NCBI GenBank assembly: GCA_029938555.1
Contig: JAOZUR010000003.1
Coordinates: forward strand, 1-42,375
Reading direction: 5' to 3'
Origin: Candidatus Sabulitectum sp.
Lineage (GTDB): Bacteria > Fermentibacterota > Fermentibacteria > Fermentibacterales > JCC-6
Length of the DNA: 42,375 bases
Shown: piece after piece, positions 1,010-10,594 of the stretch
Numbering within the stretch: position 1 is the first letter of the stretch
Layout of the letters: each line of letters begins with the position of its first letter
Position numbers and translations under genes: made by a program
The notes under the pieces: model-generated
What the model saw: the letters and a program-made list of their open reading frames with translations, nothing else
The model's database searches: none
What the model was told of the DNA's origin: nothing

Positions 1010-3175
1010 TTATTCCAGAATATATGTTTTTGTCCATTCAGGTCTTTCAGTTTCTCCTTCAGATAGCATATCACGCCAAGTTTCATCTGTAAGTCTATTG
1101 CTCATTGGTTGATTGAATTGATAATAACTAAGAACTGGGCCAATAGCCGCCTCAATAACACCATCTGCTCTTTTGTAAACAACAATACAGTAATCAAGAT
1201 TGCCTGAAGCAACTTCAAGAACACTGGAGCTGTTCTGGTCAGTGTGAACATCAGCTATCAAACTTGTCTCAAGCCCTTCAGTGGTAGTAGCTCCCCATGA
1301 AATAGCATTTTCTAAATAACCTGCAAAACCCTTGAGAAAATCTGCATCCGTAGTTGTTAACATTTCACCTGCAAGTTGTTTTTCTGCTATTAATTGAAGG
1401 GTTTCTAGAAGGGATTCTGCATTTTTAAACCTGTTTGTTATATCTGAATCAGAAAGATTGTAATGTTCAAGTGCCCTTTGAGCCATTTGAAGTGTAGCTC
1501 TAAGTTCTGCATAAACCTCAGGAACTGGTTCAACAAATCCTGCTGATGGTACAGGTTCATTCCTATTAGGAGCACATCCTGACATAGCTGTATAACTTTG
1601 CTTTGCGTAAAGAATAGTGTCATGTCTGAGCATAGCCCATGATGCTAAGAAAGTGGAGAGGGTGCAACGATCCCAAGCAGGTGTTTGCATAAAATTAGGA
1701 TAACCTTCTGTTCTGGGAGCTGAAAGCAACTCCAACGAATGAAGCCAGCACATATACAAAGTAGAGTGCCATTCTTCAAGTGTGTAGTTATCAACCATGG
1801 TCTGCATACTGTCTAAAGTTGCACAGTAGTTACCGAAAAGTACCGTACCATCTTCTTCAATAATCTCTAGAGCAGCGGCACATCGAAAAGATGCTGCAAC
1901 ATCAAGACCTGATGGCATGAATCTTTGTTCACCACTTGGATTGACAGAAATATTAGGAAAAACAAATTTGCCCAACATTTCACTGTCAGGTGTATACCGC
2001 TGCCCAAAGAACCGGAAACCAGTGGTTTTAGACAAAAGAGTCTGCAGCTCTGCCGGATCAAATTCACCTGATACTTCAGGATTTACAACTGAAGCACCGG
2101 TACCACTGTAAATAGCCGGACCCTCTAAATTCTCAGCTATAAAGTCTGTGAAATCTTCATAAAAAGATTGTTCGAATAGATTTGTTGATTCTATCAATTC
2201 ACCAGATACTTCCTCTGCCGCTGTTTGATATTGAGGTACGGAAAGGTCATCAGCAAAACCTGCAAAAAAAGCGGTAATCTCATAAATTCTCTGCCATTTA
2301 TACTTTAATGGTACTTCATCAATGACTATGGTATTCAGATCAGAAACAAGCAACAATGCTGCTTGAGTCATTTCTTCTGCAACTCCTTCCGAAACAAGAA
2401 ATTCTTCATCAGGCCCAAATGGCTCACCACCATGTAAAATGAAAGTAATTCTGCCAAGATACATCATAACCATAAAGTAATTCTCAAGTTCTTCGCTTGC
2501 TGTGTAATGACCACGGGGTACATACTGAGAATAATCTTCTTTATAACCGAATATAGGGCTGAATGAAAATCCTGCGTGTTCTCTCATTAAGGAAACTTCA
2601 GAGTTCACTATTTCTTCAATGGAGCCATGTGGAATAAAATCTTCATCAAGAAATACTAAAGAAACAGCAAAAAACGAAGCATTCATAAGATTTCCACGGG
2701 ATAGATTGCTTTGATATAGTTCTTCACAAATAATAAGTAGATCCGGATATAAGTCTTCAGTTTCCACCTGCTGCAATATCTGGTCAAAGAAGATATGCAA
2801 TAAATGAAGTGGAATTCCACTGGAAACATAAATTGGCTGATCCCTGTCTTCCAGTCTCTCAAATGCTCTCACTGGATTATCTGTTGGGTTTGAAATAGGA
2901 ACGACAACAAATCCATTTTCATTTATCTGTTCTGGCACATGATAAAGTCCGCCAAGTTGAAGAACTGAATTTAAGTTAAAAATATCATCAGTTGCAATTG
3001 GTAAATTTATCTGTTCCATTCTCGGATTTGAATTGAATTCAACTGGAGTGTAGAATCTAGAGAATGATTCTTCCATGGTTTCCTCCGCTGGGAAATGTAA
3101 ATTTTCTTCAAAAGAATCGGCTGAGCAACTAGCATTCAATAAAAGAAATACAGCAATAAATAGAATTATTTTCAT
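1010..3175 (-). CDS. DUF3160 family lipoprotein
   Basis: The 721-residue protein starts with a short hydrophobic signal (MKIILFIAVFLLLNASC). The likely lipobox is NASC, which is weak because Asn replaces the usual Leu at -3, so lipidation is probable rather than certain. Hallmarks of DUF3160 are clear: FRFFGQRYTPDSEM, RFMPSGLDVAAS, NFMQTPAWDRCTLSTFLASW and LRHDTILYAKQSYT across roughly residues 380-540. The family is found in many uncultivated bacteria and some archaea and has no established biochemical function; its members are large, helical and exported. AAAGGAG sits upstream of the ATG. It leads a probable two-gene minus-strand unit with the propeller lipoprotein. Family assignment is confident; function is unknown. 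Confidence 0.85.
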   Translation of the reverse strand: MKIILFIAVFLLLNASCSADSFEENLHFPAEETMEESFSRFYTPVEFNSNPRMEQINLPIATDDIFNLNSVLQLGGLYHVPEQINENGFVVVPISNPTDNPVRAFERLEDRDQPIYVSSGIPLHLLHIFFDQILQQVETEDLYPDLLIICEELYQSNLSRGNLMNASFFAVSLVFLDEDFIPHGSIEEIVNSEVSLMREHAGFSFSPIFGYKEDYSQYVPRGHYTASEELENYFMVMMYLGRITFILHGGEPFGPDEEFLVSEGVAEEMTQAALLLVSDLNTIVIDEVPLKYKWQRIYEITAFFAGFADDLSVPQYQTAAEEVSGELIESTNLFEQSFYEDFTDFIAENLEGPAIYSGTGASVVNPEVSGEFDPAELQTLLSKTTGFRFFGQRYTPDSEMLGKFVFPNISVNPSGEQRFMPSGLDVAASFRCAAALEIIEEDGTVLFGNYCATLDSMQTMVDNYTLEEWHSTLYMCWLHSLELLSAPRTEGYPNFMQTPAWDRCTLSTFLASWAMLRHDTILYAKQSYTAMSGCAPNRNEPVPSAGFVEPVPEVYAELRATLQMAQRALEHYNLSDSDITNRFKNAESLLETLQLIAEKQLAGEMLTTTDADFLKGFAGYLENAISWGATTTEGLETSLIADVHTDQNSSSVLEVASGNLDYCIVVYKRADGVIEAAIGPVLSYYQFNQPMSNRLTDETWRDMLSEGETERPEWTKTYILE

Positions 3176-3296: not shown

Positions 3297-3662
3297 ATGC
3301 TAAAAAAACTTTTAGAGGAAATCAGAGAATTTAACAAAGCTAGGGATTGGGATCAATTCCACTCACCTAAGAATCTTTCAACTTCTATACTAATTGAAGC
3401 TGCTGAACTTGCAGAGATTTTTCAGTGGCTTACTGAAGAAGAAAGCAAAAACTTGGACTCTAAGGCCCAGCAGAATGCCGAAGAGGAAATCGCAGATGTT
3501 TTTATATATCTATTAAATCTTGCAGACAAGCTTGGAGTAGATCCTATTCAGGCATCTATTAAAAAAATGATAAAAAACGGACAAAAGTATCCAGCAGATA
3601 TATGTAGGGGAAGTCGTCTGAAGTATACGGAGTTAAAGGAAAGTAAAAAAAGACCCCGATAA
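3297..3662 (+). CDS. MazG-like nucleotide pyrophosphohydrolase (dCTP pyrophosphatase type)
   Basis: The 121-residue protein matches the short single-domain MazG/RS21-C6 family, which hydrolyses (d)NTPs to monophosphates and pyrophosphate and helps clear non-canonical nucleotides. The metal-binding signature is visible: EAAELAEIFQW with the paired acidic residues near residues 31-36, and EEIADVFIYLLNLAD near residues 62-76. KNGQKYP near residue 97 is also typical of the dCTP pyrophosphatase branch. AGGGGGAAGTT precedes the ATG. The gene is single and plus-strand between minus-strand neighbours, with its own upstream dyad and a terminator that overlaps its last codons. Substrate preference cannot be read from sequence. 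Confidence 0.85.
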   Translation: MLKKLLEEIREFNKARDWDQFHSPKNLSTSILIEAAELAEIFQWLTEEESKNLDSKAQQNAEEEIADVFIYLLNLADKLGVDPIQASIKKMIKNGQKYPADICRGSRLKYTELKESKKRPR

Positions 3663-3675
3663 TTCGGGGTCTTTT
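3648..3675. terminator. Bidirectional intrinsic terminator between convergent genes
   Basis: A perfect 12-bp stem, AAAAGACCCCGA (3648-3659) with TCGGGGTCTTTT (3664-3675), has a four-base TAAT loop. The stem is A-rich on the left and T-rich on the right, so it can terminate from both directions. It serves the MazG-like gene, whose stop codon TAA (3660-3662) lies inside the loop, and the minus-strand propeller gene ending at 3685. Confidence 0.85.
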
Positions 3676-3684
3676 AAGTAAGTC

Positions 3685-4464
3685 TTAAAATGTTGCCTTT
3701 ATAGCTCCCCAAGTATTTCTACTTAAAGAAGAGATGGTAACATCTATTTTGTAAATTTCATCTGTGTTCATGTTGCTCACCCAAAGATAACCTTCATCAT
3801 CAAAAGTCATTCCGTGTGCTGCAGGAAGCACAGAAGAACTAATAGCCTCTACAAGAACTCCGTTTCCATTGTATACCCTAATTGGAAACTCTGAATCATT
3901 GCAGGCGTACCACCAGTTATTGTTGTAGTATGCTATATCGTAAAAGTCGATTCCCAGTTCAAGCATAAACTCAGGTCCTGCTTGAATAACTCCTGTGTAG
4001 CTGTAAATTTCAAGACATTCTTTCATGGTCTGAGTATCCACACCGGCTCCATAAATTTTACTGTTTCCTGTTGCGAGACCAGTAACCTCCTGGTCTAAAT
4101 CGCTTCCTCAACAATCCAGAGAAAATTGCCCCTGATAATCTCCTGAATCATTGTATCTGTAACAATATGAAATCGTAAGATTTGGAGTGTTTCCCATGGA
4201 TATGTAAACAGTATTGTTTGCAAAAGTGAGACCGGAAGGCACTTTTGTACCATTTTCACAATACCATGAATTCAAAACAGCACCTGATAAATCAAGCTCA
4301 TAGGCATACTCTGTAACCATATCAATGGCCCACAATGAACCATTCCCATACCCAAGACCGGAAATGTTCGTGTCAGGAGCATCTATTGTTGAAACAATAG
4401 AATACTCTGCAAATGCAATTCCTGAAAACAGGAAAAGAAAAATGAAGGTAACAGCAAATTTCAT
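3685..4464 (-). CDS. Secreted beta-propeller protein with one in-frame UGA (selenoprotein candidate or nonsense-interrupted gene)
   Basis: One frame runs from the ATG at 4464 to the TAA ending at 3685, broken only by a TGA at 4110-4108. The N-terminal part (118 residues) has a signal peptide cleaved around AFA-EYS and propeller-like strands (SGLGYGNGSLWAID, SGLTFANNTVYIS). The frame continues past the UGA with another matching strand (VTGLATGNSKIYGAG) and later AHGMTFDDEGYLWVSN, and ends in the tail SLSRNTWGAIKATF. The blade pattern therefore spans the UGA, which follows a Cys (SLDC-UGA-GSDLD). A bulged hairpin sits just downstream (4073-4103). AAAGGGG precedes the start. Either the UGA is read through, perhaps as selenocysteine, or the gene is a recent nonsense mutant, or this is a base error. 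The ligand is unknown. Confidence 0.65.
4073..4103 (-). promoter_or_regulatory. SECIS-like bulged hairpin downstream of the in-frame UGA
   Basis: Read on the minus strand, GGAA follows the UGA, then GCGA (4103-4100), a UUUA bulge (4099-4096), GACCAG (4095-4090), the loop GAGGUUA (4089-4083), CUGGUC (4082-4077) and UCGC (4076-4073). This makes a perfect 6-bp upper stem and 4-bp lower stem with a U-rich bulge on the 5' side only. The apical loop begins 18 nt after the UGA and carries G and GGU, close to the geometry of the E. coli fdhF SECIS. A competing fold pairs A4096 with U4076. It is a candidate only; a chance hairpin in coding sequence is possible. Confidence 0.45.
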
Positions 4465-4737: not shown

Positions 4738-5334
4738 ATGAAGAGTTTACTTGTTATGGCACTTATGGTTGCATTCGCACAATTTGCTTTTGCTGAAAAC
4801 ACTGTTACTTATGGCTGGGAGGGTTCACAGACAATCTTGGGTAATTATGGTGATATCATCTGCACAATAGACACAGAGCAGGTTCATAGTGGTGATCAGG
4901 CACTGAAGGTAGTTGATGATGCTGAATCTGGTACACCACAAGCTTTTGTTGGTTGGGTAGTAGGCCTTTCCGATGGGGATGTTGTAACAGCTTCTTTCTG
5001 GAGATACGATGATACACCTTCAGCTTCCCCTTCATGCAGAATCTGGGGTAGCTGGAATGATGATCCAAATGATATCACTAGTTATGGTGGAAGCGCCGGT
5101 GGAGAAGAAGATTATGGTCCAGGTACAGGTTGGGATCTTACTGAATACACATGGACAGTCGAAGGTGGCCACCCGGGTCTTATTATTCAGGTAAGAACTT
5201 ACTCTGAAGCTGGAGCTACTGTATGGATTGATGACATGACAATCACAGCTCCTGATGGGGCTGAAATTCGTACACCAGAGTACGCCCAGTCTCTTTCACC
5301 AGACACATGGGCAGCAATCAAGGCTACATTCTAA
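4738..5334 (+). CDS. Secreted jelly-roll-like protein with C-terminal TWAAIKATF tail
   Basis: The start chosen is the ATG at 4738, because it is preceded by GAGAGGAAG and opens a clean signal peptide (MKSLLVMALMVAFAQFAFA, cleavage before ENTV). An upstream in-frame ATG at 4690 would put a hydrophilic stretch ahead of the signal. The mature protein of about 180 residues is rich in Gly, Asp and aromatic residues. It has the alternating-strand look of a carbohydrate-binding-module type jelly roll: HSGDQALKVVDD near residue 45, then a closing ATVWIDDMTIT. It ends SLSPDTWAAIKATF, nearly the same tail as the neighbouring propeller protein, although the DNA differs. Divergent from that gene, with its own terminator. 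The specific ligand is not recognisable. Confidence 0.8.
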   Translation: MKSLLVMALMVAFAQFAFAENTVTYGWEGSQTILGNYGDIICTIDTEQVHSGDQALKVVDDAESGTPQAFVGWVVGLSDGDVVTASFWRYDDTPSASPSCRIWGSWNDDPNDITSYGGSAGGEEDYGPGTGWDLTEYTWTVEGGHPGLIIQVRTYSEAGATVWIDDMTITAPDGAEIRTPEYAQSLSPDTWAAIKATF

Positions 5335-5348
5335 GAATTGTTATTTAT

Positions 5349-5384
5349 AACCGGGTCTGTTTTTTAAACAGATCCGGTTTTTTT
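5349..5384 (+). terminator. Strong intrinsic terminator
   Basis: A 14-bp stem pairs 5349-5362 with 5366-5379, with one G-U wobble and a three-T loop. A run of seven Ts (5378-5384) follows. It lies 14 bases after the stop of the secreted protein gene and overlaps the last codons of the convergent cyclase-like gene. For that gene it would also form a hairpin, but with a weaker U tract. Confidence 0.9.
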
Positions 5385-8300
5385 ATAAGAAATACATTTA
5401 TCAGCTTCTTCTGGCATATTCATTTCTCGATAAAGAATTTCTGCTTTTTTCATATATTTATTAAATTCAAATTCTATTCTATTTTCAAGCTTTAGTTCTA
5501 TTATGGTTTTAGCAAAAGATTGATAAGCTCTTGCTAATGCAGGTTTTGTATCCATTTCCTTAATAATCAAAACTCCATCTTCAAAAACTTTAATACCTTG
5601 ATGTATATCACCTTTTGTAACCAGGTGCTCACTCAGAGCAAAAGCATAAGAAGCTTTGTAATTTTCATTTTCAGACTTCTCTAAAAGCTTAAATGCTTTT
5701 TCCAAAACTTCTTCAGATAGTAAAACTTCATTTTTAAGTAAGAGACATTTTGAAATGTAAAGATATATTCCAAGTTGCATAGAAGAATTTGTAGCAACGG
5801 CAATAGCTTGAGCTTCATGAAATATTTCTAAAGCAGCATCAACTAACCCTTCACTTAATCGATTATGTGCTTGAACTACCAGTAAATGAGCTTTTTCACG
5901 ATCAAAGGATGCATCATCAGGCAGAATTGAAAGACCTTTATTTGTGTAATTTGAACTTTCTTCAATTTTACCAATTTCATTATAAACAAGTCCAAGGTGT
6001 GAATACGCAAGAAGCATATCATGTATAGCACCTATTGACTTAGCAAGGTTCATCTGTTTTTTTCCGTGAAAAATTGCTTCTTTGTAGTTTCCTAAAGCAG
6101 CGTGATTAGTAGCAAGTTCTCCGTGTGCGCTAAGAATAAGCAACTTTTCACCAATTGCAGTGGCCATGGATAATTTTTTTTCCATTCCCAGAGAAGCTTC
6201 TTTAAATTTCCCTAGTTTTTGAAGAACTAAACCTATATTTCCATAAGTAAGTGCAGCTTCTCTTTTTAAATTGTTAGCATTAGCAATGACAATTGCTCTT
6301 TCATAAAGATCTTTTGCTTTAGAATACTGTCCACTTGCCCAATAGACCGTAGCAAGAGTATTAAGTGCATGACCTATCTTTTTTGCTCGATAACACTCAG
6401 AAATTCCCGTGAGTGATTCAGAAATTCTAACGGAAGTAAGAGCTTCTGCCATTGCTAGGTCTAGTTTTCCAGTAATGCAATATACCCAGGCACGGTATGC
6501 TGCTATACCCAGATCAAGTGTTCTATCAGTATTCTTGCCTTTTATAAGTCTATTTTCAAGATTTTCAATTATACTCATACCTTCATCTAATTTTCCTTGA
6601 GCATAAATAACATCAGCATAATTAAGAAGACTTCTACCCACAAGAGATAAATCAGTTGATAAATCTGGAATTTTTTTATAAAAATCTATCGCTTCTGAGT
6701 ATTCACCAATAAGTTCCTTAACTCCTCCGATTGACGAATAACACTTTGCTAACTCTTCTCTTTGCTCTGGGTGAAAACTAGTGATCATTCTAATAGCATC
6801 TTCAAAAAACTTTATAGCTTCCTGGTTTCTGTATTCATCAACGGCAATAGCACCGGCTTCTATAGAATATTTTATTGCCATTCTCCATTCTTCCGCATTG
6901 ATGAAATGGTAGGCTAAAATTCTGTTTAAATCTTTTTCCTTAGAAAGGTTGTTTTCTAGTATGTACCCAATATCTTTATGTATTTGCCTTCTGCGCTCTA
7001 GAAGAATTGATTCGTATGCCACGTCTCGAATAAGCATATGACTGAATATATATTCAAGTTCGGTTATATTTGAAACAAAAGTTAAACCTGCATCGGATGA
7101 CTCAACTAAATCAGTATGAACATTCCTGGATATGATACGGTAAAGAAGATTTTCTTCAAACTTAACACCAACCACACTGGCAATCTTAAGGCTTTCTCGT
7201 GTTAATTCAGATAAAGAATCGATTCTAGCCATAATCATTGAAAAAATACTTTCAGGAAGACTTTCAAGGCTGGAATCACAAGATTTTTCCCATTTATTAT
7301 TTATGAATTGAATAAGATTTTTCTCTTTTAGATAAAGGAAAAACTGAACAAGAAAAAACGGATTACCTTGAGATCGCTTAACAAGAACTGTGAGAATCTG
7401 TTTTTCAATTTCTTTTCCCAAAGCAATACCAGCAAGTAACTCATATGAATCTTTCTCTGAAAGACCTTCAAGATTAAATTTATAGACCCCTGTGTCATCC
7501 TTAAAAAAATCCTCTTCAGTGGGCCGGGTAGTTAAAACAAAACTTAACAAACCTTCAGAAATTCTTTGAGACATAATCATAACTTCTTGCAGAGATTTAA
7601 GTTCTTCTAAATCTGAATAATGAATGTCCTCCACAATGATACAGGTTGGCAGTGGTAATTCTTGTAAAAGCAAGGTAATTGCTTCAATCAAATTTTCTCT
7701 TCTAAGTTTGGGGGGTAATGAATCAAAAGTTTTATCTTCTGATTTAATTCCAAAGAGCATTCTAGCAATAAATAATTCTCTGGTAATAATTTGTTCTTTT
7801 TCCGTTAATTCTAGAAAATCATGTAATTGTTGTTCTAACAATACTTTGTCTGTATTTCCTGACAAATCGCAGATATCACAAACTAGAGTAGTAAGTATTT
7901 CATTAGGAGGTCCGTGTTTTGTTTTTCCACATTTTTTTACAGTATAACCGCTGTCTCTTAGAGATTTAGATAGCTTGTTTACAAATGTGCTTTTTCCTAT
8001 ACCGGCATTACCGGAAAAAAGAATTCTAGACTCTGATTTCTTAATGAGTTCTGTGATTTTTTCAAGTTCTTTTTCACGACCGACAAAAGGTATAGAACTA
8101 AAATGAGAAGTGAGTCTTTGGATGGGCTTGAATCTTCTTAAACGATTATTTTTTCCTTTAACGGTTATAGAATCTAATTCTTTAAAGGAAAAATGTGACC
8201 GAGTTCGATTATATACACTTTCACTTACATTAATAGTTCCATTGACAGTACTGTCAGAAAGTCTTGCTGCTGTATTAACAGAGTCACCAATTACTGTGTA

Positions 8301-9230
8301 CTGTTTTCTTTTTTCATTACCTAGAATTCCCGAGAAAACATATCCTGTATCAATACCACAGCTTAAATTGAAAGAATACTTACCTTCAATTACAGAAAAA
8401 ATATTAATCATTGCCAACAGAGAGTTTACAGTATCATCTCCATAAGAAACAGGAGCGCCAAACAGAATCAGAATCTTTGATCCTTTTTCTAAAATATCAT
8501 CAATATGATGCAAGTACCCACCATATTTAGCTAATGATTTAGAAATATCAAGACACAGGTCATGGAAATCCTGAATAACTTTAAAACCGGATTCATCTGT
8601 ATGCACACTCAAGAAAACTGCTGTTACCGACCGATGCTCTCCAAAAAGTCTTTGCGAACCTGGAGATATAAAAGCTCTATTATCAGTTGGTGGGAACTGC
8701 AATAAAGTGGTTGTAACTGGTTCATCCAGGTAGAAGCTAGTAATGGTCTCTGGAGATGCATTTTCCTCGGTAGATGCAAGTTTTCTTATTAATTTACCAG
8801 AAAGAATAATATGAGAATTTTTGTTATCACCAATAATGTACTGATTCCATCTACCGATACCCAAAACAACTTTTGCTTTTAATGAAAACTCATATTCAAG
8901 GATAGACAGGTTTCTGAAATGTTTCATGGCATCCAACATTGTTTTTGCACAGCTTTTAGCGTTTTTTTCTTGTTGAAACCGAACAAGCATGGAATCTCCT
9001 GAAAAGGTGATAATACTTCCATTGTATTGCTCAGTAACAGTAATCATTTTATCAAAAAATTTATTAAGAAGAGTTGTAAGGGCTTCTGTTCCGTTTTTTC
9101 CACTGGCTGCAAGAATTTCAGTAATTGCAGTAAAACCGGAAATATCTACAACTAAAAGTGCACCACTAAATTCGACTGAACCATTTCTAATTAAAGAAAC
9201 ATCTCTTTCAGGAAAAAAAGCTTTATCCAA
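5364..9230 (-). CDS. Soluble adenylyl cyclase-like protein: two cyclase domains, NTPase, TPR array
   Basis: The 1288-residue cytoplasmic protein has no membrane segment. The first class III cyclase domain (about residues 20-150) has the metal-binding aspartates D29 (VVDISGF) and D79 (FSGDSMLV). The second (about 200-345) lacks these but has YTVIGDSVNTAARL, with the transition-state pair N319 and R323. The two halves would make one composite active site, as in mammalian ADCY10. An AAA-type NTPase follows (Walker A GNAGIGKST at 407-415; hydrophobic strand CIIVEDIHYSD as Walker B), then TPRs from about residue 760 to the end. The adenine-contacting Lys of ADCY10 appears replaced by T75, so nucleotide preference is uncertain. 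It starts at a TTG with GGAG upstream. It is monocistronic, and no cyclic-nucleotide receptor is nearby. Confidence 0.85.
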   Translation of the reverse strand: MDKAFFPERDVSLIRNGSVEFSGALLVVDISGFTAITEILAASGKNGTEALTTLLNKFFDKMITVTEQYNGSIITFSGDSMLVRFQQEKNAKSCAKTMLDAMKHFRNLSILEYEFSLKAKVVLGIGRWNQYIIGDNKNSHIILSGKLIRKLASTEENASPETITSFYLDEPVTTTLLQFPPTDNRAFISPGSQRLFGEHRSVTAVFLSVHTDESGFKVIQDFHDLCLDISKSLAKYGGYLHHIDDILEKGSKILILFGAPVSYGDDTVNSLLAMINIFSVIEGKYSFNLSCGIDTGYVFSGILGNEKRKQYTVIGDSVNTAARLSDSTVNGTINVSESVYNRTRSHFSFKELDSITVKGKNNRLRRFKPIQRLTSHFSSIPFVGREKELEKITELIKKSESRILFSGNAGIGKSTFVNKLSKSLRDSGYTVKKCGKTKHGPPNEILTTLVCDICDLSGNTDKVLLEQQLHDFLELTEKEQIITRELFIARMLFGIKSEDKTFDSLPPKLRRENLIEAITLLLQELPLPTCIIVEDIHYSDLEELKSLQEVMIMSQRISEGLLSFVLTTRPTEEDFFKDDTGVYKFNLEGLSEKDSYELLAGIALGKEIEKQILTVLVKRSQGNPFFLVQFFLYLKEKNLIQFINNKWEKSCDSSLESLPESIFSMIMARIDSLSELTRESLKIASVVGVKFEENLLYRIISRNVHTDLVESSDAGLTFVSNITELEYIFSHMLIRDVAYESILLERRRQIHKDIGYILENNLSKEKDLNRILAYHFINAEEWRMAIKYSIEAGAIAVDEYRNQEAIKFFEDAIRMITSFHPEQREELAKCYSSIGGVKELIGEYSEAIDFYKKIPDLSTDLSLVGRSLLNYADVIYAQGKLDEGMSIIENLENRLIKGKNTDRTLDLGIAAYRAWVYCITGKLDLAMAEALTSVRISESLTGISECYRAKKIGHALNTLATVYWASGQYSKAKDLYERAIVIANANNLKREAALTYGNIGLVLQKLGKFKEASLGMEKKLSMATAIGEKLLILSAHGELATNHAALGNYKEAIFHGKKQMNLAKSIGAIHDMLLAYSHLGLVYNEIGKIEESSNYTNKGLSILPDDASFDREKAHLLVVQAHNRLSEGLVDAALEIFHEAQAIAVATNSSMQLGIYLYISKCLLLKNEVLLSEEVLEKAFKLLEKSENENYKASYAFALSEHLVTKGDIHQGIKVFEDGVLIIKEMDTKPALARAYQSFAKTIIELKLENRIEFEFNKYMKKAEILYREMNMPEEADKCISYKKTGSV

Positions 9231-9842: not shown

Positions 9843-9876
9843 CTGGAAGAACCGTGCTATTCCTATTATCTTCCAG
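9843..9876. repeat. 8-bp inverted repeat in the 9794-9907 spacer
   Basis: CTGGAAGA (9843-9850) and TCTTCCAG (9869-9876) form a perfect 8-bp dyad with an 18-base spacer, ending 31 bases before the next start codon. No U tract follows, so it is not a typical terminator. It may be an operator or chance. Confidence 0.25.
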
Positions 9877-9907
9877 CTTCGGTATCATATATCTAATTGG
9901 AGATGAA

Positions 9908-10594
9908 ATGAAGATATTACTGCCTCTATTATTGATTTTCTCCGTATGTTATGGCGAGATTTTGTTTTTTGATGATTTCAGTGATGGAGATGATGAAGGA
10001 TGGATTCATTTCGGAAATGCATCATTTGATGTTTTCAATGAGAAGTATTGTATTTTTTCTCAGGCTGCAAGAGGGCTTGGTAAATCAATAAACTCTGATG
10101 GTATGGGTTTCATGAGTACATCTGATTATTCTGTGATTTGCAGTATTGAAATGGAATGCGGTACAGAATCAGGGATTTTAGCAAGATACGAAAATTCGGA
10201 TGAATGGTATTACAGAATGATACTTCAACCAAATAATTCTCGCATACTTATTCAACGAAAAATAGATTCTGGAGCTACTTTTGGTATTGATGAATACTCA
10301 ATTCAGCTTCTGTATGACACCGTTTACTTTGTACGCTTTCAAGTCTCGGGTAATTTAATCCAGGGGAAAATTTGGCAGGGATCAATTGAAGAGGAGCCTG
10401 ATTATTGGCAACTTGAAGCTTCTGACTCTGTACAACCTAATCCAGGTTATTTTGGAGTTTTTTCAGGTGGATACGGAAAAAATATGGTTTCATGGTCTTC
10501 TCTTTTTGACGATATCACTGTGTCTACACCGATTACACAAAATCTATCTCATATCACATGGGCATCCATTAAGTCTTCAGGTTTTTCACAGTGA
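9908..10594 (+). CDS. Secreted LamG/concanavalin-like protein with TW-IK type tail
   Basis: The ATG at 9908 is chosen because GGAG lies five bases upstream and it opens directly into a signal peptide (MKILLPLLLIFSVCYG-EIL). The mature part of about 210 residues has the beta-sandwich motifs of a family-16/LamG-like laminin-type domain: FFDDFSDGDDEGWIHFGN near the start, GILARYENSDEWYYRMIL in the middle, and PGYFGVFSGGYG then SWSSLFDDITVS near the end. This layout (damaged-looking strand order included) is typical of exported domains that bind glycans or proteins. The C-terminus, NLSHITWASIKSSGFSQ, matches the tail of the proteins at 3685 and 4738. The stop overlaps the murJ start as GTGA, so the two are translationally coupled. 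Function unknown. Confidence 0.75.
   Translation: MKILLPLLLIFSVCYGEILFFDDFSDGDDEGWIHFGNASFDVFNEKYCIFSQAARGLGKSINSDGMGFMSTSDYSVICSIEMECGTESGILARYENSDEWYYRMILQPNNSRILIQRKIDSGATFGIDEYSIQLLYDTVYFVRFQVSGNLIQGKIWQGSIEEEPDYWQLEASDSVQPNPGYFGVFSGGYGKNMVSWSSLFDDITVSTPITQNLSHITWASIKSSGFSQ

Follow-up and report, generated by a model that had tools for sequence, protein, structure and literature searches.

An in-frame UGA in a Fermentibacterota gene predicted to encode an exported five-bladed beta-propeller selenoprotein

The window analysed here, a stretch of 42,375 nucleotides that forms contig 75 of a 3.03 Mb draft genome of Candidatus Sabulitectum, holds on its minus strand a reading frame with a single TGA inside it. 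Does this codon end the protein, does it reflect a mutation or an error, or is it decoded as selenocysteine? An earlier note, made from the letters alone, had raised the reading as a secreted beta-propeller selenoprotein, and this is now strongly supported by the selenocysteine machinery of the genome, the UGA column in homologues, covariation in the hairpin downstream and the likeness of that hairpin to those of SelD genes. In the frame 4464-3685 the TGA at 4110-4108 is the sole interruption, with 118 amino acids before it, 140 after it and a TAA at the end of the frame, and the translation bears out both the signal-peptide-like N-terminus and the intact C-terminus that had been described. 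The selenocysteine would directly follow a cysteine, as had also been pointed out, giving a Cys118-Sec119 (C-U) pair. General reassignment of TGA, already set aside in the earlier note, is rejected because TGA terminates 11 of the 35 long open reading frames in the window as well as several propeller family genes themselves. The gene appears monocistronic, and the coordinates of its features are collected in Table 1. Regarding its surroundings, a large DUF3160 protein (544 bits) is encoded by the adjoining gene at 1010-3175 on the minus strand, and a DUF3160-related gene also lies near several orthologues (neighbour cluster 5). Further along the same strand, 5364-9230 is occupied by a long gene, possibly started by TTG, with, by inspection, a cyclase-like N-terminus and an ATPase/TPR-like C-terminal part.

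Table 1. Features of the predicted selenoprotein gene, in positions of the window.
Feature	Position	Strand	Description or basis
Predicted selenoprotein gene	3685..4464	-	259 codons + TAA; signal peptide, five-bladed beta-propeller with Cys118-Sec119, short TWGAIKATF tail
In-frame UGA, codon 119, predicted to be read as selenocysteine	4108..4110	-	same column in homologues
Cys118 codon beside Sec (C-U pair)	4111..4113	-	Cys at -1 or -3 in all Fermentibacterota sites examined
Probable signal peptide, codons 1-20	4405..4464	-	MK + hydrophobic stretch + AFA-E by inspection; low-pLDDT helix (AlphaFold)
Bacterial SECIS-like hairpin, complete predicted structure	4073..4103	-	RNAfold
Conserved SECIS core: 8-position stem (4095-4088 with 4084-4077) around GGU triloop 4087-4085	4077..4095	-	covariation, covariance model R1
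C-terminal tail TWGAIKATF, possible sorting tag	3688..3714	-	recurrent in source genome
Probable intrinsic terminator just 3' of the gene (GACCCCGA..TCGGGGTC-T7)	3644..3675	-	by inspection

The machinery for selenocysteine insertion, for which a check had been proposed, is present in full in the source genome. A selA match scores 504 bits, selB adjoins it on contig 6, and a tRNA-Sec is found 70 bits above the Rfam cut-off, which ARAGORN calls as tRNA-SeC(tca) with anticodon UCA. Two selD genes are also present, each with one in-frame TGA, so that selA, selB, selC and selD occur together in the genome that carries the candidate selenoprotein gene. The two selD genes (loci L199 and L219, on contigs 47 and 20 of the source genome, G000) have SECIS triloops of GGU and GGC. 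Across Fermentibacterota, tRNA-Sec was detected in 36 of 42 genomes, the other six probably lacking a match through incompleteness together with stricter filters, and selB lies above the cut-off in most of the 42. In genome G032 there is no TGA-bearing propeller, no tRNA-Sec match and neither selB nor selD above the cut-off; this co-absence supports selenocysteine decoding in an only suggestive manner, because G032 is 73% complete.

The distribution of the family was established by a search of 60 genomes, which yielded propeller homologues from 42 of 42 Fermentibacterota; the 18 remaining genomes had none. Named relatives drawn by the family profile from GTDB genomes all belong to Candidatus Fermentibacteria (Sabulitectum, Aegiribacteria, Fermentibacter; formerly Hyd24-12). 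When TGA is read through, a single alignment column carries it in 75 distinct homologues, and every homologue that possesses the loop has the in-frame TGA there. The codon is likewise present in 51 of 51 GTDB loci checked, all of them drawn from a set retrieved with an N-terminal pattern independent of the TGA, and a TGA-bearing propeller occurs in 41 of the 42 Fermentibacterota genomes, G032 being the exception. In G033 the TGA is kept, but the gene breaks soon after it. The earlier note had proposed that this column be inspected in homologues; it proved invariant, with no Cys, Trp, Arg, Gly or other sense codon found among the 75 homologues, in a search of 385 genomes or in the 51 GTDB loci; the inspected homologues that lack TGA lack the whole loop. 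These TGA-less paralogues are more distant, the loop being absent altogether rather than substituted, and some of them retain a single Cys (CPGT). Cys-for-Sec homologues, which are usual for selenoproteins although not obligatory, were thus absent from the 385 genomes and the 51 loci. Such absence is unusual, and genomes beyond those searched could still contain a Cys homologue.

The residues around the column are also strongly patterned. The cysteine is located at -1 in 49 and at -3 in 28 of 77 Fermentibacterota sites, and glycine directly follows the selenocysteine in 76 of them. Moreover, comparison of 13 orthologues or close paralogues displays synonymous differences near saturation on either side of the TGA (pS about 0.64-0.96, and about 0.75 in the part after it), with low nonsynonymous differences both before it (pN 0.12-0.26) and after it (pN 0.08-0.27). 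It is therefore indicated that the second half is translated and selected as protein. As to copy number, tandem duplicates of the TGA-bearing propeller are seen at L037, L062, L068 and L070, and family genes reach about seven per genome (for example G028 and G034). At L042 (contig 7 of G017) a second in-frame TGA, which may be either a mutation or another Sec codon, lies about 60 codons past the Sec codon, in the context FFDIUYMQDD.

In the profile search of 385 genomes, the same arrangement was found in one genome outside Fermentibacterota, G099, the sole genome of its phylum in the collection. In at least three propeller domains of this genome, an in-frame TGA corresponds to the U of HCPGGU, which adds C-P-G-G-U to the C-U and C-x-x-U spacings. 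By inspection, the proteins that contain these propellers are long and exported, and their C-termini are dockerin-like and FlgD/T9SS-like; G099 possesses tRNA-Sec and a TGA-bearing SelD. The remaining matches outside Fermentibacterota were weak, and the few inspected were ordinary propellers or secretion tails.

Folding of the RNA by RNAfold reproduced the hairpin 4103-4073 as it had been drawn, with a GCGA/UCGC lower stem, a UUUA bulge, a 6-bp GACCAG/CUGGUC upper stem and a 7-nt loop GAGGUUA, and the distance of 18 nt between UGA and loop was borne out. The GGU noticed in the loop is present; its description required refinement, since GGU forms a triloop closed by an A-U pair and a G.A mismatch rather than part of a plain 7-nt loop. 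In many relatives the triloop is closed by a perfect stem. The hairpin agrees with the definition of a bacterial SECIS as a hairpin directly 3' of the UGA with a small apical loop containing G (PMC1088965). All 77 Fermentibacterota sites have a stem around a triplet GGU (72/77) or GGC (5/77) after the UGA. Counted from the U of UGA, the first G of this triplet falls only at position 21 or 24, two places that differ by one codon.

Conservation of the hairpin, a further point the earlier note had wished to see examined, was confirmed, with compensatory changes in the stem. With the protein sequence held fixed, 7 or more of the 8 pairs would arise by chance in the window gene alone with P = 0.019. 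Among 568 possible pairs in 71 unique homologous sites, 531 are formed, against 306 +/- 9 under synonymous-codon randomisation, a comparison that is indicative rather than a strict significance, as related sequences are not independent and sigma is inflated. Alignment of 35 distinct hairpins displayed standard pairs in 93% of pair cells, and six of the eight pairs vary on both sides. The covariation score was 0.464, compared with 0.155 +/- 0.019 for shuffled alignments (0 of 500 shuffles) and 0.02-0.16 in slid registers. In the class DxxVxGL, where the covariation is plainest, 5'-arm codons CAG (Gln), CGG (Arg), CTG (Leu) and CAA (Gln) pair with 3'-arm codons ACT, ACC and ACA (all Thr) and TTT, so silent third bases track amino-acid changes on the opposite arm.

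SelD is a long-established selenoprotein family, and the two SelD hairpins of the source genome served as a positive control, with a GGU triloop on 8 contiguous pairs in one and a GGC triloop on 7 in the other. Run on the source genome, the covariance model R1 recovers the three family genes and no other gene; its further matches there are weak (E above 2) and lack a long open frame on both sides. The SelD hairpins, with their other spacing, and the G099 hairpins were not scored by R1. By inspection, the G099 hairpins share a register among themselves, two of them having compensatory stems (GGCGGG/CCCGCC and TACGGG/CCCGTA) around CGTGA and the third being imperfect. An Rfam scan of the selenoprotein gene returned nothing above the gathering score.

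The observations above bear on two other accounts of the TGA. A single TGA in one draft genome could well be a nonsense mutation, the mark of a pseudogene or an assembly or sequencing error beside a chance hairpin, and the earlier note had left these possibilities open. They are now excluded because dozens of independent assemblies, with 41 of 42 genomes among them, share the UGA in the same column, and constraint is found on either side of it; the probability left to such an accident is negligible. Alternatively, UGA might truly end translation, either as a regulated terminator or with a little readthrough in which Trp or some other standard amino acid is inserted, so that the downstream half is made only now and then. 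The normal use of TGA as a stop in this genome (those 11 of 35 window frames) and the signal peptide that the N-terminal half has of its own are in keeping with this. However, the codon is always UGA and never UAA or UAG in all homologues, a SECIS of SelD type with compensatory stem changes follows it, the selenocysteine machinery is complete, Cys is always found at -1, -3 or -4, and purifying selection continues past the UGA. A stop codon is consequently regarded as highly improbable. Decoding of codon 119 as selenocysteine in a full-length exported protein is very likely the correct account; it is strongly supported, about as firmly as comparative genomics allows, with incorporation of selenocysteine itself being a prediction.

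The structure of the protein was predicted by AlphaFold from 44 aligned sequences (pLDDT 87.7, pTM 0.83), and five four-stranded blades could be assigned by us in the model. Cys118-Sec119 follows the final strand of blade 2 (110-115) and precedes the opening strand of blade 3 (125-133), and the other invariant residues, Pro30-Asp31, Asp176 and Gly218, lie in or near inter-blade loops. Loops of that kind are found, by propeller convention, on the face that usually bears active sites, and the Cys-Sec loop would accordingly be placed on that face.

Regarding export, a T9SS sorting domain of the Por_Secre_tail type was absent from the window protein, and was above the cut-off in paralogues L012 and L087. 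Because paralogues carry this type IX secretion tail, export to the surface or the medium is very probable for the whole family. The tail of the window protein may serve instead as a Fermentibacterota tag for sorting or anchoring that has so far gone unrecognised, since the pattern W..IK..F-stop has 19 matches in the source genome against 2 for the reversed control. Tails of the form T-W-x-x-I-K-x-x-F are also carried by exported proteins at 5308-5334 and 9854-10594 on the plus strand of the window. No obvious or conserved redox partner was seen beside the loci examined. Genes of the CGGU class lie directly behind a cluster of adenylate/guanylate cyclase, SH3, M48 peptidase and glutamine cyclotransferase genes, and a true Glu_cyclase_2 gene precedes them, the cyclotransferase family having a five-bladed fold too. 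This upstream cluster is conserved at L135, L139, L140, L144-L147 and L152.

Taken as a sequence of events, UGA at codon 119 would be decoded by SelB and Sec-tRNA(UCA), directed by a hairpin which begins a few bases 3' of the codon and displays the GGU triloop. The N-terminal signal peptide would carry the protein out of the cytoplasm, and the protein is predicted to fold as a compact five-bladed propeller in which blades 2 and 3 are linked by the loop that bears Cys118 and Sec119. The two residues might then form a reversible selenenylsulfide and act as an extracellular redox centre, such as a disulfide, polysulfide or peroxide reductase. Such chemistry is suggested because a Cys-Sec couple at -1, -3 or -4 occurs on an exported propeller, and on the strength of this motif its chances are put at about even. 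Binding of a soft metal or electrophile is the main alternative: the pair would serve as a capture site for Hg, Cu or an organic halide on a secreted binding selenoprotein rather than as a catalytic couple. Vicinal C-U pairs in Sao and HgcA-type selenoproteins are tied to mercury or organometal handling (PMC13188914), propellers are common binding scaffolds, and several paralogues occur per genome; however, no metal-resistance or metal-transport genes were recognised beside the loci examined, and the C-x-x-U of some subfamilies is the classical redox spacing, leaving this role possible but unlikely. A structural use, in which a selenenylsulfide joins partner proteins at the cell surface, would fit exported proteins with secretion tails and a pair placed in a loop. 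Selenocysteine is nevertheless costly for a purely structural bond and the spacings of -1, -3 and -4 suggest an internal couple, so that crosslinking appears doubtful at best.

Returning to the selenoprotein reading, its wider meaning concerns how such families are detected. A 2026 review tabulates 119 prokaryotic selenoprotein families, none of them a propeller (PMC13188914), and the open literature, with subscription papers, preprints and one groundwater MAG survey lying outside this scope, held nothing relevant linking Fermentibacteria, Hyd24-12 or type IX secretion to selenoproteins. As judged from the genomes compared, the propellers would constitute a large, previously unlisted family that is largely confined to Fermentibacterota. 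Discovery pipelines lean on Cys-containing homologues, and the family falls in their blind spot because no Cys homologue occurs in the data searched. The 2025 deep-Sep method paper holds that Cys homologues now seem to exist for every known selenoprotein and that its algorithm would discard any without them, a blind spot named by its authors (PMC12013277). Public annotation likely displays these genes as two truncated open reading frames, masking a group of extracellular Fermentibacterota proteins. The exported five-bladed propeller is a new fold context for selenoproteins, the positions -1, -3 and -4 within one family are a new Sec/Cys arrangement, and the hairpins offer natural covariation in abundance for studying the bacterial SECIS that goes with a SelB of an uncultured phylum. 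The balance tips slightly towards an obligate-Sec family of surface-exported beta-propellers with no cysteine-only counterpart in nature, which has up to about seven members per genome in one anaerobic phylum, occurs in at least one other phylum, and would represent a notable part of the phylum's selenium economy spent outside the cell. The use of selenol chemistry outside the cell by an anaerobe, and the reason why Cys cannot replace Sec, thereby become testable questions.

Comparison with known proteins places the family within familiar folds. No Pfam family above the cut-off and no NCBIfam match was obtained for the window protein; NCBIfam includes models for many known selenoprotein families, and none of these matches the propeller family. 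The best structural match of the model is to the five-bladed glutaminyl-peptide cyclotransferases (PDB 2iwa, 3nol, 3mbr; TM 0.65-0.73). The likeness is at the level of fold only, with 14-16% identity and no match of the window protein to the Glu_cyclase_2 profile (PF05096), and the window protein differs in carrying the Cys-Sec loop. Its sequence profile resembles the blades of the designed Pizza6 and of Brat NHL, and the G099 domain weakly resembles Vgb. Compared with NHL and Vgb-type propellers, however, the model has five blades, not six or more, and has Sec, and the NHL profile (PF01436) was not above the cut-off in any member scanned. The TGA-less Fermentibacterota paralogues (for example L089, L093 and L094) belong by profile to the same fold family and are without the Cys-Sec loop. 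Set against the 119 tabulated families, of which none listed is a beta-propeller or T9SS-exported, the propellers stand apart also in having no Cys homologue found (PMC13188914). With the known C-U and C-x-x-U selenoproteins, such as SaoL, HgcA, GrdA, SelW-like proteins and the FCYXU TonB receptor, they share the in-frame UGA, a SECIS directly downstream and a cysteine one or three residues before the selenocysteine.
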